Below are positions 3,951 to 31,899 of a DNA stretch of 64,000 nucleotides, one piece after another (positions within the stretch are counted from its first letter, which is position 1; each line of letters begins with the position of its first letter). The notes under the pieces were generated by a model. It was not told where the DNA came from. It did not search any database and saw nothing but the letters and a program-made list of their open reading frames with translations. The DNA is from Nitrospiraceae bacterium (GTDB taxonomy: Bacteria > Nitrospirota > Nitrospiria > Nitrospirales > Nitrospiraceae). Where the stretch lies: contig DASPUC010000026.1 in the NCBI GenBank assembly GCA_035623075.1, forward strand, positions 62,001 to 126,000, written 5' to 3'. A program made the translations under genes and the position numbers.

Positions 3951-4898
3951 ATGTTACGGTCCTCGCCCATGCCACGCGCCTGGTTGCTTTGCTTGTTTTC
4001 CGTGCTATGTGTCGCAGCCTTTCCTTTTCCAACTCACCATATCGCAGCTGCCGCCAGCCAGTCGCCTCTTCAAGTGGTTACGACCATTCCTGTCTTAAAA
4101 GATCTCGTCGAGCAAGTCGGCGGGCCGTATGTTCGAGTCACCTCCTTACTCAGCGGGTATGAAAACGAACACACCTATGCCCCGAAGCCCAGCGATTTGG
4201 TGGCAGTCCGAAAGGCACGATTGTTGTTTGAAGTCGGCCTCGGGCTTGAGGTCTGGGTCTCGTCGCTCGTCAAGGCAGCCGGCAGTCCCTCGCTCCTCAT
4301 TATAACTACATCGAAAGGCATCGGGCTGGTCCGAGACCTGCCGGATCATGACGGCCCTACCTATGACAGCGGAGAGGGCGACCATGGAAATCCTCATATC
4401 TGGCTGGACCCGGAAAACGCCACCACCATGATGCGGCATATCGTGGAGGCGCTCATCAAGGCTGATCCCGCCCATACCGCGGAGTTCCGGAATAATCAAG
4501 CGGTGTATCTCCGGAAATTGGATCAACTCCGTACCGAGCTCAACGATCGACTTCGCCGCGTGACTGATCGTCGAATCATCGTTCATCATCCCGCATGGCC
4601 CTACTTTGCACGGCGATTTGGATTCCAGATCGTAGGAACGATTCAATCGCAACCAGCTAGCGAGCCGTCCGCTCTTCAACTGCAGAGCCTCATCACAACG
4701 ATCAAGAAAGATCGCGTCAAGGTCATCGTGTCGGAAATTCAGCTGAGCCAAAAGCTTCCCGATCTGCTAGCGAAGGAAACGGGGGCGCGCGTGGTGGTCC
4801 TCACAACACTTCCGGGCGGTCTGCCTCACACCGAGACCTACCTCGACATGCTCCGCTATAATGTGCTCCAATTAGCCAACGCGCTTGAGCCGGTGTAA
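3951..4898 (+). CDS. metal ABC transporter substrate-binding protein (ZnuA/TroA family)
   Basis: This exported protein of 315 residues has a signal peptide (PRAWLLCLFSVLCVAAFPF) and the cluster A-I metal-binding fold. Candidate metal ligands fit the family: His in ENEHTYAPKPSD, His in GNPHIWLDPENA, His in IVHHPAWPYFARRFG, and an acidic residue in the C-terminal domain (VIVSEIQLSQ). An acidic, His-poor loop (DHDGPTYDSGEGDHG) precedes the second ligand; it is shorter than the His-rich loop of classical ZnuA. Zn, Mn or Fe cannot be told apart from sequence. The ATG at 3951 has GAGG just upstream, and the inner Met at 3969 is an alternative. It leads an operon with the ATPase and the permease. 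Confidence 0.88.
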   Translation: MLRSSPMPRAWLLCLFSVLCVAAFPFPTHHIAAAASQSPLQVVTTIPVLKDLVEQVGGPYVRVTSLLSGYENEHTYAPKPSDLVAVRKARLLFEVGLGLEVWVSSLVKAAGSPSLLIITTSKGIGLVRDLPDHDGPTYDSGEGDHGNPHIWLDPENATTMMRHIVEALIKADPAHTAEFRNNQAVYLRKLDQLRTELNDRLRRVTDRRIIVHHPAWPYFARRFGFQIVGTIQSQPASEPSALQLQSLITTIKKDRVKVIVSEIQLSQKLPDLLAKETGARVVVLTTLPGGLPHTETYLDMLRYNVLQLANALEPV

Positions 4899-25778: not shown

Positions 25779-27473
25779 CTATACGCTCTGAGTTGGTCCC
25801 ATGGGAAGCAGCGGCCTATTCCTAAACATATATCGGTCTGTGACGACTTGCTGCAAGATCGTCAACACATTGTTGGTAAGCCAGTACAGCACGAGTCCGG
25901 CTGGAAAATTGATGAAGAGAAACGTCATGAAGACCGGAAGGATCAACATGATCTTCGCTTGTGCGGGATCCATCGTGGTGGGCGTAATCTTCTGCTGAAT
26001 AACCATGGTCGCCCCCATGATCAGCGGAAGCACGTAATAGGGATCTTGGATCGAAAGATCGGTGATCCAGAGCATGAACGGCGCCTGTCGCAAATCAATC
26101 GTCATGTAGAGGATATTAAAGAGAGCCACGAACACCGGCATCTGCAGCACCATCGGAAGGCAGCCACCGACGGGGTTCACCTTGTGGTCTCGATAGAGCT
26201 TGATCAGTTCCTTGTTCAGCCGATCGCGGTCATCCTTGAACTTCTCCTGCACCGCCAAGACTTTTGGCTGGATCACCTGCATCTGCTTCATTGACTTGTA
26301 GCTCTTATACTGCAACGGCACAAAGAACAGTTTCAGAGCCATCGTGAGAAGAATAATCGTAATCCCATAGTTGTGGGTGTACTCGTTAATGAATCGTAGA
26401 ACATAGAAGATCGGCTTCGCGACCGCTTTTACGACACTCCAGCTTCCAAATATAAACCACCCGAAATCGATGGTGTCTTCCAGTCCCACATTCAACGACC
26501 GTAGTGTGTCGTACTCTTTGGGTCCTGCATAGAGTTGCAGTGATACCGTGGCGCCACCCGATAGCGAAGCTGTTCGTATGCCAGCCGAGACAATCTTGTC
26601 ACCTTCTTTCTTAATCACCGCTGCTGTCGCTTGGCGGGGCATCAAAACGGAGAGAAAATATTTGTCTTGGAGCGCCACCCACTGGACAGTCCCTTTCCGT
26701 TCAAGTTCCGCCTCGGGAGTTTCCTTCTCAACCTTGCCGTCGACCATCGACGCTGATCCGATCAGACCGATGAGCCCGTCTCCCCATTCGACAACTCCGA
26801 AGTTTGTCCCCAAGCCCACATCAAACGGTTGAGTAACTCCGTCGAGTTTCACAGAAACATCGACGATATAGCTGTCATGGTGGAATGTCAGCTGCTTCTC
26901 AACGGAGAGCTGTTTGCTAGGATCCTGAAACCGGAGCGTCAGGTGTCCGACGGGATGAGAAGCATCGAGTGTGGTGAAATCTTGTTCAAGAGAATACAAC
27001 CCCTCTCGCATTGCCTTATCGAGGCCCACGTCCGCCACTGTGATCGACAAGGGCCCTCGGAACTTGCCTCCGGGATAGACCAACTGTACCGGCTTTGCTT
27101 CGGGGAGAGGGGTATGGTAGCGCTTCAACTCCCAGCTCTTCACGACTCCGCCACGATTGGTTAGCTCGGCCCGGAACAAATCGGTGTCAATCGTGACCGT
27201 GTTTTCACTGGTCGGGAGACCGACTTCCAAGAGACTCGACGAAGGCTTACCCTCGTCATGTTGGCGCGCAACTTCTGCGGTGCCTTCACTGGCTTCGCGT
27301 GCAGTCCCTCTGGTTTGAGTCCGCGGTTCTTCCGGGAGAGAAGCCGGCTTCTGCTCGGACGCATCTTGAGTTGGCGGGGGTTGGGGAAGCCAACCAAGTT
27401 CTTTCAGGATGTAATCGTACCCGAAGATGATGGCCAAGGAGATAATCAAGAAAATGATGACACGTTTTTCCAT
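25779..27473 (-). CDS. yidC: membrane protein insertase YidC
   Basis: The 564-residue insertase has an N-terminal anchor (RVIIFLIISLAIIFGYDYIL) and a Pro/Glu-rich linker. A large periplasmic beta domain follows, as in Gram-negative YidC. The C-terminal core of five membrane helices includes NYGITIILLTMALKLFFVPL and GGCLPMVLQMPVFVALFNIL. It inserts proteins, such as ATP synthase F0 subunits, into the inner membrane. The periplasmic domain supports a diderm organism. It follows yidD with a 36-base gap. Confidence 0.96.
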   Translation of the reverse strand: MEKRVIIFLIISLAIIFGYDYILKELGWLPQPPPTQDASEQKPASLPEEPRTQTRGTAREASEGTAEVARQHDEGKPSSSLLEVGLPTSENTVTIDTDLFRAELTNRGGVVKSWELKRYHTPLPEAKPVQLVYPGGKFRGPLSITVADVGLDKAMREGLYSLEQDFTTLDASHPVGHLTLRFQDPSKQLSVEKQLTFHHDSYIVDVSVKLDGVTQPFDVGLGTNFGVVEWGDGLIGLIGSASMVDGKVEKETPEAELERKGTVQWVALQDKYFLSVLMPRQATAAVIKKEGDKIVSAGIRTASLSGGATVSLQLYAGPKEYDTLRSLNVGLEDTIDFGWFIFGSWSVVKAVAKPIFYVLRFINEYTHNYGITIILLTMALKLFFVPLQYKSYKSMKQMQVIQPKVLAVQEKFKDDRDRLNKELIKLYRDHKVNPVGGCLPMVLQMPVFVALFNILYMTIDLRQAPFMLWITDLSIQDPYYVLPLIMGATMVIQQKITPTTMDPAQAKIMLILPVFMTFLFINFPAGLVLYWLTNNVLTILQQVVTDRYMFRNRPLLPMGPTQSV

Positions 27474-27509
27474 GTCGCGCCCCGCTCTAAACGAAAACTT
27501 CCGTCCTCT

Positions 27510-27719
27510 TCATCGAACTGGATCAGCCCCTCCGGGATGAAAGGGGTGACACTTGGCTAATCGACAGATCGCCAGACCAAATCCCTTCAGTACACCATAG
27601 CGGCTGATGGCGATTCCGGCGTATTCAGAGCAGGTTGGCTCAAAACGGCACGCAGGGCCGAGCAACGGAGAGATCCAATATCGGTAACAGACGAGCAATC
27701 GGACACAGAGGTGCCGCAC
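27510..27719 (-). CDS. yidD: membrane protein insertion efficiency factor YidD
   Basis: The short protein shows the YidD core: [27 protein letters not shown] and [14 protein letters not shown], with conserved cysteines and histidine. GTG 27719 (69 residues) was chosen because it lies just after the rnpA stop with GAGGA upstream; an ATG at 27758 gives 82 residues but overlaps rnpA by 38 bases. YidD helps YidC-dependent insertion, and the gene order rpmH-rnpA-yidD-yidC is the classical one. Confidence 0.9.
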
Positions 27720-27720
27720 T

Positions 27721-28083
27721 CTAGTCCTCTTCGGTTCGAAGGAGGTGGTGACGAGCAAAAGATGAGCGCCACGCCACTTTCAAGGTCGCAAACGGTTGAG
27801 TCAATGCATCACGCTTAGGGAAGACCAAGACCGCTGGTTCGGCCAGCAGGTCCACATGGATCTGCCTCACCAGTTCTCGAAAAATGCGTTTCGCACGATT
27901 TCTTCGAACCGCATTCCCAAACCTCCGGCCGACGATAATACCGACTTGCCCTCCGTCCACACCAGTCCGGTACACCAGTAGGTTGAACAATGCCGTCGAA
28001 ATCCGTCGGCCATGTTGTTTCACGAACTCGATGTCGCGGCTATTCCGCAAGAACAAGCCCTTGTCGCCCTTATACTCCGGCAT
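27721..28083 (-). CDS. rnpA: ribonuclease P protein component
   Basis: RnpA is the protein subunit of RNase P, which cleaves the 5' leader of tRNA precursors. The 120-residue basic protein has [20 protein letters not shown], containing the conserved RNR motif, followed by IFREL. The usual N-terminal [16 protein letters not shown] segment is present. It is read with rpmH upstream. A longer-than-usual gap of about 160 bases separates it from rpmH. Confidence 0.95.
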
Positions 28084-28811: not shown

Positions 28812-29429
28812 ATGACGGAAAAACGACTGAACTTCGCGCTCATTGCCCTCGCCCTCGTCCTTGTGACTGGGTGCGCGAAACCACCCACAGAGCAAATCGA
28901 GGCAGCGGAAAAGGCCGTAGCAGAGGCTCAACAAAGCGGCGCTGCCACCTATGTGGCAGAGGAATACACAAAGCTCGAAGGTGCCTTGTCCGCTCTTAAG
29001 AAGGAAGTGGCCGACCAAGATACAAAGTTTGCGTTGCTGCGGGACTACGGAAAGGCCGAACAACTGGCCATTGCAGCGAAGACGGATGCGGAGCGAGTCA
29101 AGGGAGAAGCGGAAAAGAAGAGAGAAGAAGCAAAGACTGCCGCGTTACAAGCCCAGCAAGCCGCTCAAGAATCAGTCAGGGTCACGCTCGACCTCGTGGC
29201 GAAAGCCCCCGCTGGCAAAGACCGGGCGGCATTGGAGGCAATCAAGGCTGACGCCGACGCGCTGAAAGCTTCCTTGAACCAAGTCCAAATAGCGATCGAC
29301 AAAGCCGACTATCAAGCGGCTCAGAAACAGGCGGAAGCGATTCGCGAGAAAAGTGCTGCGGTCTCTCATGAAATCGAAACCGCGTTGGCCAAAATCGGCA
29401 AGGGGAAAGCACCGGCGAAAAAGAAATAA
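28812..29429 (+). CDS. helical lipoprotein (DUF4398-like)
   Basis: The 205-residue protein has a lipoprotein signal (NFALIALALVLVTGCAKPP; the lipobox VTGC places the lipidated cysteine at about residue 21). An almost entirely helical Ala/Lys/Glu-rich body follows: AAEKAVAEAQQSG, then YVAEEYTKLEGALSALKKEV and a long coiled coil (GEAEKKREEAKTAALQAQQAAQ). The pattern matches DUF4398, seen near cell-envelope enzymes. It precedes two L,D-transpeptidases in the same direction. A tether or scaffold role is inference. Confidence 0.75.
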   Translation: MTEKRLNFALIALALVLVTGCAKPPTEQIEAAEKAVAEAQQSGAATYVAEEYTKLEGALSALKKEVADQDTKFALLRDYGKAEQLAIAAKTDAERVKGEAEKKREEAKTAALQAQQAAQESVRVTLDLVAKAPAGKDRAALEAIKADADALKASLNQVQIAIDKADYQAAQKQAEAIREKSAAVSHEIETALAKIGKGKAPAKKK

Positions 29430-29441
29430 GCCAGGCAGCTT

Positions 29442-30587
29442 ATGACGAAGCATCAACGACTCATGTATTCGTTCGCATCCGGATGTGTGTTCCTCGTCTT
29501 GGTGGTAATCTTGACCGCCTGTACGGAGGCCGTGCCACAAGATGTGGTCGAAGCGATTGAATCAATTGATCGAAACCTCATGGACCTGCGGGCCGCGGAA
29601 CTGGCACCCGATGACTATAGCCGATTTGCCCATCAATGGATAGCCCTCAAGGCTCGTGTTGAAGCCGAAGAAGACCTCATCCACTGGCCATGGGAACCCA
29701 ATGAACTCGATCTGGCCCTTCGAAAGCTCTACGAAGAAGGCATCCAGACAGTCGCACGGGTCGCAGATCAACGCAAGGTGCTCCGAGAGACAGCTGAACA
29801 CAAGCTTACCGCTGTCGAGAATCGTTTCCAGGTTCTAACCGACCAGGTGGGAGCAATCGATAGCCGACTTGTCCTCGGTCAACAGTTGATCGAAACCGAC
29901 CTCCTCGTTAAGCAGGCACGAGCATTTTTTGAAGATGGAAAATTCGAGCGATCAATCGAGGCATCTGACAAGGCTGGACAGATGCTCACCTCCCAGGCCA
30001 CCGTGTTGAGCAACGAGTTAGGGCGGTACGCCGATCACGGCCGGATTGGCCGATGGCAACGGATGGCGAAGGATACGATTGCATGGTCACAACGCCACCA
30101 CACGAGTGCGATCATCGTGAGCAAGGCCGACCGTGTGCTGACCCTCTACAAGAACGGCCAGAAGGTGCTATCATACCCGGTGCGACTTGGGTTCAATGGA
30201 ATCCGCGAGAAACGATACCAGGGAGACGGCGCTACGCCGGAAGGACGTTATCACATCACGGGTAAGCGCGGGCAGGGGCAAACTCAGTTTTATCGGGCCT
30301 TGCTGCTCGATTACCCGAATGAGGAAGATCGCCGCCGGTTTCACTCGGCACGGAAGACCGGACTGATTCCAGCATCAAAAGGAATCGGTGGACAGATCGA
30401 GATCCATGGAGTCGAGAACGAGCTGATGGCGCAAACGTTGGGCTGCGTGATGCTCGAAAACGCCCAGATGGTCTATCTGTACGACCGAGTCGAGAAGGGA
30501 ACTCCCGTGACCATCGTTGGAGCCCTCCACGAGCACAATTCTGTTGCCGAAGCGCTCGCCAATCTTGGACAGCGGAACACTATCTGA
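29442..30587 (+). CDS. L,D-transpeptidase with N-terminal helical domain, lipoprotein
   Basis: The 381-residue protein begins with a lipoprotein signal (FLVLVVILTACTEAV). A helical N-terminal half includes LAPDDYSRFAHQWIALKARVEAEE, similar in pattern to the lipoprotein encoded before it. The C-terminal YkuD domain has SAIIVSKADRVLTLYKNGQKVLSYPVRLG, the HG of IEIHGVEN and a TLGCVMLEN segment that holds the likely catalytic cysteine in place of the more common SHGC motif. Such enzymes cross-link peptidoglycan (3-3) or attach proteins to it. It ends 10 bases before the next L,D-transpeptidase. Confidence 0.85.
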   Translation: MTKHQRLMYSFASGCVFLVLVVILTACTEAVPQDVVEAIESIDRNLMDLRAAELAPDDYSRFAHQWIALKARVEAEEDLIHWPWEPNELDLALRKLYEEGIQTVARVADQRKVLRETAEHKLTAVENRFQVLTDQVGAIDSRLVLGQQLIETDLLVKQARAFFEDGKFERSIEASDKAGQMLTSQATVLSNELGRYADHGRIGRWQRMAKDTIAWSQRHHTSAIIVSKADRVLTLYKNGQKVLSYPVRLGFNGIREKRYQGDGATPEGRYHITGKRGQGQTQFYRALLLDYPNEEDRRRFHSARKTGLIPASKGIGGQIEIHGVENELMAQTLGCVMLENAQMVYLYDRVEKGTPVTIVGALHEHNSVAEALANLGQRNTI

Positions 30588-30596
30588 GCAAGCCAT

Positions 30597-31235
30597 ATGA
30601 TGAAACAGGTGATACAGACTCTGTACCCCGGATTGATCAGCCTGGTGCTTCTTCTCACCTTGGCCCCAAGCAGCGGACTCTCGTCGCCAGATGCCTCGGC
30701 TGCTCCCCCCAAACCAACTGATCCAGCTACCTTACGGCAACTCCAAGGCCGTTACTATTCGCTCAGTAGACAGCTCGCTCAATTGATGCCGGGTCAACCC
30801 TATATCCTGGTCGATACTGCGCGTAACCACTTGTACATCCGACACCGTGACCGTGTCATGCTCGACGCGCTAGCCTCGACCGGGAGTGGCACCATTTTGG
30901 ATAAGCCTGGCGAGGCCCAGAGCCAATGGGTCTTTGACACACCGCGAGGCGAGTTTTTCGTCCAATCGAAACTCACGAATCCCGTGTGGGTGAAACCTGA
31001 CTGGGCCTTCATTGAAGAAGGTCTCGCCGTCCCCAAGAACCAAGCGGAACGGATGGAGCCAGGCGTCCTCGGAGAGTATGCGCTCGGATTTGGCAAGGGC
31101 TATTTCATCCATGGCACGCTTTACACTAGACTACTCGGGAAAAATGTGACCCACGGGTGCATTCGACTCAACGACGAGGATCTCAAGAGTGTCTATCGGC
31201 TTGCAAAGGTCGGTACGCCGATCATGATTTTCTAA
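30597..31235 (+). CDS. L,D-transpeptidase (YkuD family)
   Basis: The 212-residue protein has a signal peptide (LYPGLISLVLLLTLAPSSG). The YkuD fold follows: QPYILVDTARNHLYIRHRDRVML, then FFVQSKLTNPVWVKPDWAFIEEG, and the catalytic motif YFIHGTLYTRLLGKNVTHGCIRLNDED with the catalytic Cys in HGCIRL. It is a classical periplasmic L,D-transpeptidase that acts on peptidoglycan tetrapeptides. ATG 30597 or 30600 both fit. It is the middle of three related genes. Confidence 0.93.
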   Translation: MMKQVIQTLYPGLISLVLLLTLAPSSGLSSPDASAAPPKPTDPATLRQLQGRYYSLSRQLAQLMPGQPYILVDTARNHLYIRHRDRVMLDALASTGSGTILDKPGEAQSQWVFDTPRGEFFVQSKLTNPVWVKPDWAFIEEGLAVPKNQAERMEPGVLGEYALGFGKGYFIHGTLYTRLLGKNVTHGCIRLNDEDLKSVYRLAKVGTPIMIF

Positions 31236-31260: not shown

Positions 31261-31899
31261 ATGACGTTCATCCCCTCTCTCTTTTCTCTCATTCTGACTT
31301 TGATTCCGATGACATCGACTGTTGACCCTTCATCGCGACCGTTTGTGGATGTCACCGACGCGGCGGCACTCCAAGAAGCCACACGGGTTCTTGCCGAAGA
31401 AGTGAAGGTAGCTGCTCGGCCTCAGACCTACGTGCTCATCGATCTCCCTGCAAATACTATCTTGCTCAAAGGCCGCGGCATAGAACTCCACCGGATTCCG
31501 ATCAAGCACTGGAGCACTTCGGATCAGCATGAACTCATCATGACCTTTCGATTAAAGGAACGTCCTCTTGTCACCCGTCGGAAGATCGACCCTTCAATCA
31601 GTCCCGAACAGGAACCGATCTCCTTGGCTGACATGCCAACGGCCTATTCTCTGCAATTTACTCCGGCATTGACGATTACACTCGATTCCTATGGGCAAGC
31701 GAGTCTTTGGGGAATGGCAGCGCACTTCGTGAGGCAATGGTGGAGACTGGTCATCAAATGGTGGCGTGCGATCTGGACTGAAGCTAATTCCGCTGTCGCA
31801 CCCGAGCTTGACCTCACCGTGAGCGTCGATGATGCACAATCATTGGCCTGGATGCTAACCGATGGCATGCCGGTGCTCATTCGCCGACCCATCCACTAG
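31261..31899 (+). CDS. L,D-transpeptidase-like protein without catalytic Cys
   Basis: The 212-residue protein follows the enzyme encoded just upstream and resembles it in outline: an N-terminal hydrophobic leader, then YVLIDLPANTILLKGRGIELHRIPI as in the opening strands of the YkuD fold, and a C-terminal LTVSVDDAQSLAWMLTDGMPVLIRR that matches the enzyme's CIRLNDEDLKSVYRLAKVGTPIMIF segment. The HGC motif is replaced by L-T, so the catalytic cysteine is missing. It also has Trp-rich AHFVRQWWRLVIKWWRAIW. It is probably a non-catalytic partner or a degenerate paralogue. Confidence 0.7.
   Translation: MTFIPSLFSLILTLIPMTSTVDPSSRPFVDVTDAAALQEATRVLAEEVKVAARPQTYVLIDLPANTILLKGRGIELHRIPIKHWSTSDQHELIMTFRLKERPLVTRRKIDPSISPEQEPISLADMPTAYSLQFTPALTITLDSYGQASLWGMAAHFVRQWWRLVIKWWRAIWTEANSAVAPELDLTVSVDDAQSLAWMLTDGMPVLIRRPIH

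Follow-up and report, generated by a model that had tools for sequence, protein, structure and literature searches.

L,D-transpeptidases are important in beta-lactam tolerance. Members of the YkuD family (PF03734), among them Bacillus subtilis YkuD (1Y7M), LdtMt1 and LdtMt2, and the LdtE-type enzymes of Escherichia coli, share a beta-sandwich domain with catalytic His, Cys and Arg residues. One described system in which such enzymes stand beside a lipoprotein is that of Braun's lipoprotein (Lpp) with LdtA-C. The DpaA/LdtF/YafK amidase releases Braun's lipoprotein (PMC8263019, PMC10653827). Most DpaA-like proteins carry Ala or Asn rather than Arg two residues after the catalytic Cys, and some of the bacteria that have them possess no Lpp (PMC8263019). 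A separate but potentially relevant precedent comes from the degenerate LytM proteins EnvC, NlpD, ActS and DipM, which are catalytically dead and are kept as regulators of cell-wall enzymes (PMC8360153, PMC10268282, PMC10336132).

Here we describe a gene at 31261-31899 (+) of the window, a 64,000-nucleotide stretch of a Nitrospiraceae contig, which we refer to as ORF and which lies directly behind a typical YkuD-family L,D-transpeptidase gene, LDT2. We put at about one half the probability that ORF encodes a secreted, non-catalytic protein of the YkuD fold that arose as an ancient duplicate of LDT2 and has been kept as its partner. The predicted protein has the beta-sandwich, the opening strands and the C-terminal helix-strand of the active enzymes. 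Unlike them, it lacks the catalytic His, Cys and Arg, matches no Pfam family, and bears a long amphipathic helix between the equivalents of the His- and Cys-bearing strands. It is covered by no curated Pfam or NCBIfam model, and a search of the open-access literature brought up no paper dealing with an L,D-transpeptidase paralogue that has lost catalysis, or with the gene cassette that contains ORF. We regard it as a pseudoenzyme branch of the YkuD fold.

A four-gene cassette

ORF is the last of four genes on the same strand, starting 25 bases past the end of LDT2 and followed by a gap of about 480 bases before the next gene (32377), which we take to encode a glucokinase-like protein. On its other side the cassette divergently adjoins a cluster at 25779-28083 (-) that by eye resembles yidC-yidD-rnpA, a neighborhood that is frequent close to replication origins. 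The first gene, LIP (28812-29429, +), encodes an Ala- and Lys-rich, low-Pro, coiled-coil-like lipoprotein with a lipobox (VTGC) and a basic tail ending KAPAKKK (29406-29426), and is a candidate for a tethered substrate. LDT1 (29442-30587, +) follows, with its own lipobox (LTAC), an N-terminal half resembling LIP and a DpaA-like YkuD domain. LDT2 (30597-31235, +) is a canonical L,D-transpeptidase with the motif FIHGT...THGCIRL (THGCIRL at 31149-31169), and its (S/T/A)HGC[IV]R signature is intact in all 184 loci.

The first-pass annotation had read this row as two active enzymes followed by one inactive relative. LDT2 fits that description, but LDT1 is DpaA-like and lacks the Arg typical of transpeptidases. 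Its motif, TLGCVML (30435-30455), retains the active-site Cys with no Arg two residues after it; among the loci whose motifs were listed, the residue after TxGC[IV] varies between M, A, S, G and Q, most commonly Met or Ala, and is never R. The best match of LDT1 in the PDB is DpaA itself (8IKR), a weak one (E 2e-4) with the L,D-carboxypeptidase Csd6 close behind, and the NCBIfam profile LdtF_DpaA_YafK gives 32 bits, short of its cut-off of 365. LDT1 is therefore probably DpaA-like and an amidase-type enzyme, to judge from the missing Arg and these matches. It differs from DpaA in its lipobox and LIP-like domain, and DpaA keeps the Cys that ORF has lost. The row thus probably combines a transpeptidase with an amidase-type enzyme and a pseudoenzyme, and the LIP gene belongs to the same set.

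LIP, which has no Pfam family, recalls Lpp in several respects, being lipobox-bearing, Ala-rich, usually ended by Lys or Arg, and encoded beside an L,D-transpeptidase; it is about three times longer than Lpp and has no family match. A lipobox-like motif is present in 113 of 122 LIP sequences, and the last residue is K in 76 and R in 27 of them (K/R in 103 of 122), in proteins whose body contains 12% K and 1.5% R (about 14% K+R). In one family (f3), all 11 of the LIP sequences counted end in A, V or S rather than K or R, so attachment through a C-terminal Lys cannot be universal. LIP may be an analogue of Lpp in phyla that lack Lpp.

Cassette loci were gathered from contigs with LDT2 as the query. 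The full four-gene set, always arranged in this way, was recovered from 119 loci; about 14 of these are duplicates (the same contig fetched twice). Wherever ORF and LDT2 are both present, ORF lies directly behind LDT2 (160 of 160 loci, with no other order), and the same holds for 20 of 20 weaker, diverged Acidobacteriota matches that were read. Carriers, classified by record title, are found in Nitrospirota, in Aminicenantes and other Acidobacteriota, in Nitrospinota, and in Deltaproteobacteria-type lineages (Syntrophales, Desulfobacterales, Geobacteraceae and Desulfuromonadales). In sampled genomes, ORF was present in 105 of 396 from the window's phylum, 27 of 199 Acidobacteriota, and 5 of 198 and 4 of 77 from two further phyla.

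Loss of catalytic residues under purifying selection

The bounds of ORF are exact, with an ATG start, a TAG stop and 212 codons. The 212-residue product begins with an apparent signal peptide and is predicted to be secreted; an N-terminal helix (residues 34-51; 31360-31413, +), which also precedes the YkuD domain of LDT2, leads into the degenerate beta-sandwich. A D-M-P motif (residues 124-126; 31630-31638, +) is near-invariant within the family, and E47, Y57, G73, D124, M125, P126 and W197 are together the invariant or near-invariant positions across phyla.

Where the active enzymes carry their catalytic residues, ORF has none. The FIHG-equivalent strand (residues 136-141; 31666-31683, +) lacks a conserved His, and the replacement of HGCIRL by an L-T-V-S-V stretch, reported on first inspection, is borne out: the strand ELDLTVSV (residues 182-189; 31804-31827, +) stands in place of (S/T)HGCIRL, with LDLTVSV corresponding to the HGCIRL strand of LDT2 and no H/C motif anywhere in the protein. 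Among 161 distinct family members, none has [S/T]HGC[IV]R with its catalytic His and Cys, none has a Cys at residues 183-191 (two have one at 182), and none of the old His strands holds a conserved His. The absence of the Cys had been proposed together with the caveat that an intact Cys in close relatives would suggest a sequence error; no relative, close or distant, has one.

Pairwise comparison of eight close pairs gives dN/dS values of 0.08-0.30 for ORF, usually above those of LDT2 in the same pairs, and ORF thus evolves faster while still being constrained. That ORF is a decaying pseudogene or the product of a sequencing error would be suggested by the missing motif alone, but this reading is refuted, and we give it practically no weight, because 161 distinct relatives from several phyla have neither the catalytic Cys nor the catalytic His, and dN/dS stays at 0.08-0.30. 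ORF is neither a pseudogene nor a sequencing error. The loss of catalytic residues in its lineage is ancient, not recent, and ORF is probably a dead duplicate that has long been kept rather than a broken copy.

Relationship to the YkuD fold

Conventional searches do not place ORF in the YkuD family. BLASTP of ORF against LDT2 is not significant (E 0.11), Pfam returns no family for the window protein and leaves PF03734 unmatched there and in 33 diverse members, NCBIfam profiles give no YkuD match for the same 33, and a PDB profile search with the family profile finds no sequence match. A match to the exosortase-H-associated protein NF041730 (NCBIfam E 0.0034, below its cut-off) appeared in 1 of 33 members and was set aside as chance. 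Since BLASTP and Pfam give nothing significant, the assignment to YkuD rests on family profiles and the predicted fold.

The likeness to the upstream enzyme in the opening strands and the last 25 residues, on which the first-pass annotation had based the relationship, is real for the pair of ORF and LDT2, both in the opening strands (QTYVLIDLPANTILLKGRG / QPYILVDTARNHLYIRHRD) and over about 25 C-terminal residues. Alignment of the two family profiles over their full length with hhalign gives a probability of 93.8, an E value of 1.7e-7 and a score of 53.6, whereas none of ten column shuffles scores above 30.7 and a reversed profile reaches 11.4; against LDT1 and LIP the ORF profile scores 16.9 and 18.8. 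The probability is 85% after removal of the signal peptides and 56% for the core domain by itself, where the score of 31.7 stands against at most 19.7 in 40 shuffles. The full-length match is collinear and includes the N-terminal helix.

An AlphaFold2 model built from an alignment of 56 relatives (pLDDT 82.8, pTM 0.74) is YkuD-like, not the unrelated fold that would have spoken against the paralogue claim, and with the profiles it upholds that claim. All six Foldseek matches at E<=0.001 are L,D-transpeptidases. Their TM-scores are low, at about 0.3, with an rmsd mostly of 8-14 A over Foldseek's own alignment, and the domain must therefore be heavily remodelled. Among the 50 VIA matches listed for the same model, nearly all are YkuD-type enzymes, with Z 6.8-9.0 and alignments mostly of 92-112 residues at an rmsd of about 3-4 A. 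These results support a degenerate YkuD fold with beta-sandwich topology, as predicted by the model.

The model also shows the Trp-rich basic segment noticed in the first reading to be a predicted amphipathic helix (residues 149-172; 31705-31776, +) lying between the strands that bear His and Cys in active enzymes. Its 24 residues include six Trp, with a net charge of +4 and a hydrophobic moment of 0.62. Amphipathicity is a trait of the family, whose median lies at the 94th percentile of shuffled sequences, and the helix has a mean net charge of +2.5 and 19% aromatic residues across members. Given this amphipathic character and charge, membrane contact by the modelled helix is possible.

LDT2 as the candidate partner

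Within the window's family, 53 of 88 genomes carry both ORF and LDT2 and the other 35 carry neither, so that the one gene is never found without the other (Fisher p about 2e-25, a value that ignores shared ancestry). Of the genomes in this family, 25 have LDT1 but neither of those two genes; they take in one entire genus (g18), where LIP is missing as well, and in two of the 25 the LDT1 gene carries internal stop codons. Loci that hold LIP and LDT1 without LDT2 (L236-L241) are likewise without ORF; two of them belong to genomes (G073 and G078; L240 and L241) that retain LDT1 and all or part of LIP but have neither LDT2 nor ORF, in a genus that also contains carriers of the full set. Two Acidobacteriota loci (L223:2992-4873, -; also L218) have a LIP-LDT2-ORF arrangement without LDT1. 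Family f3 has a two-gene variant with neither LDT1 nor ORF (L224-L227 and L228-L231), in which LIP stands beside an LDT2-like paralogue whose motif, in the copies read (L224-L226), is THGCIQ rather than THGCIR. Because ORF co-occurs with LDT2 while LDT1 and LIP both occur without ORF, the genomic evidence favors canonical LDT2 as the gene whose product ORF partners.

Natural fusions of LDT2 and ORF were looked for in the cassette loci and none was found. The two were also co-folded as one chain, for which 24 in-frame loci were translated past the LDT2 stop codon; the confidence was no more than moderate (pLDDT 72, pTM 0.66, without PAE or an unrelated-pair control). ORF has lost its catalytic residues under purifying selection and is strictly linked in the genome to an active relative, two of the features, beside physical binding, that would be expected of a regulatory pseudoenzyme. 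The suggestion that it might be a pseudoenzyme partner or regulator agrees with the invariant gene order and with the strict co-occurrence with LDT2, from which the partner role itself is inferred.

Proposed function and alternative explanations

We propose that, once exported, the ORF protein would dock onto LDT2, either free or with its substrate, and would switch or position the enzyme; its Trp-rich helix would then be turned towards a membrane, towards the partner or towards the face that once held the active site. By analogy with the degenerate LytM activators, we favor activation of LDT2. Those proteins would be analogues in the way they work, each being a dead relative that has been kept; they have another fold and mainly regulate other enzyme families, whereas ORF resembles its presumed partner. 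LDT2 in turn would use the basic C-terminal tail of LIP to link that lipoprotein to peptidoglycan, a bond that LDT1, with its LIP-like domain, would undo. On a broader and more tentative reading of the gene content, the four genes could form a self-contained, reversible outer-membrane-peptidoglycan tether replacing Braun's lipoprotein in several phyla, with ORF as a dedicated regulatory subunit of LDT2.

Several other explanations fit part of these data. ORF might instead be an envelope adaptor that does not act on LDT2; it would bind peptidoglycan, LIP or a membrane by way of its Trp-rich helix and so serve to recruit or scaffold the products of the three other genes. The amphipathic and basic character of the helix, in the window protein and across the family, is in keeping with such a role, as is the presence of LIP in the cassette at nearly all loci; yet the helix may merely pack on its own domain, and it is to LDT2 that co-occurrence links ORF, with LIP and LDT1 each found without it, which leaves the adaptor somewhat doubtful. 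A different objection would be that ORF is an unrelated beta-sandwich that only resembles YkuD and lies beside LDT2 for other reasons. The silence of Pfam, NCBIfam, PDB profiles and BLASTP would be expected in that case, but a controlled, full-length, collinear profile match that takes in the N-terminal helix would not, nor would structural matches almost exclusively to YkuD enzymes, and we consider it improbable.

That ORF is an active enzyme, using another nucleophile or another chemistry on the YkuD scaffold, seems very improbable. The seven invariant or near-invariant positions show that something specific is conserved across phyla, but these residues look structural or interface-like and include no Ser, and the old active-site strands hold no conserved Cys or His. 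A non-catalytic partner or regulator of LDT2 is the reading that we prefer.

A dedicated pseudoenzyme partner, if confirmed, would be a new mode of control for L,D-transpeptidases. The cassette makes testable both how the outer membrane is fastened to the cell wall in phyla without Lpp and what the DpaA-like enzymes act on there. If the tether reading is true, it would be a first case of an L,D-transpeptidase with a dead enzyme as its partner, and it would offer a candidate substrate for the DpaA-like enzymes of Lpp-less bacteria.

Atypical loci

Three further loci depart from the usual arrangement. In one genome (G195, L108), ORF lacks its upstream partners and the upstream DNA abruptly stops matching the sister genome at base 4743, a break that could stem from binning or assembly. 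In another locus (L120:3996-5267, -), which was left out, the N-terminal half of ORF continues in frame into a downstream frame that by eye resembles methylenetetrahydrofolate reductase, and the joined frame looks like a deletion fusion or an assembly fault. Finally, genome G069 (L035:4986-5989, -) keeps ORF beside a truncated LDT2 of which only the C-terminal part remains, with no LDT1 or LIP nearby, and represents a cassette in decay.
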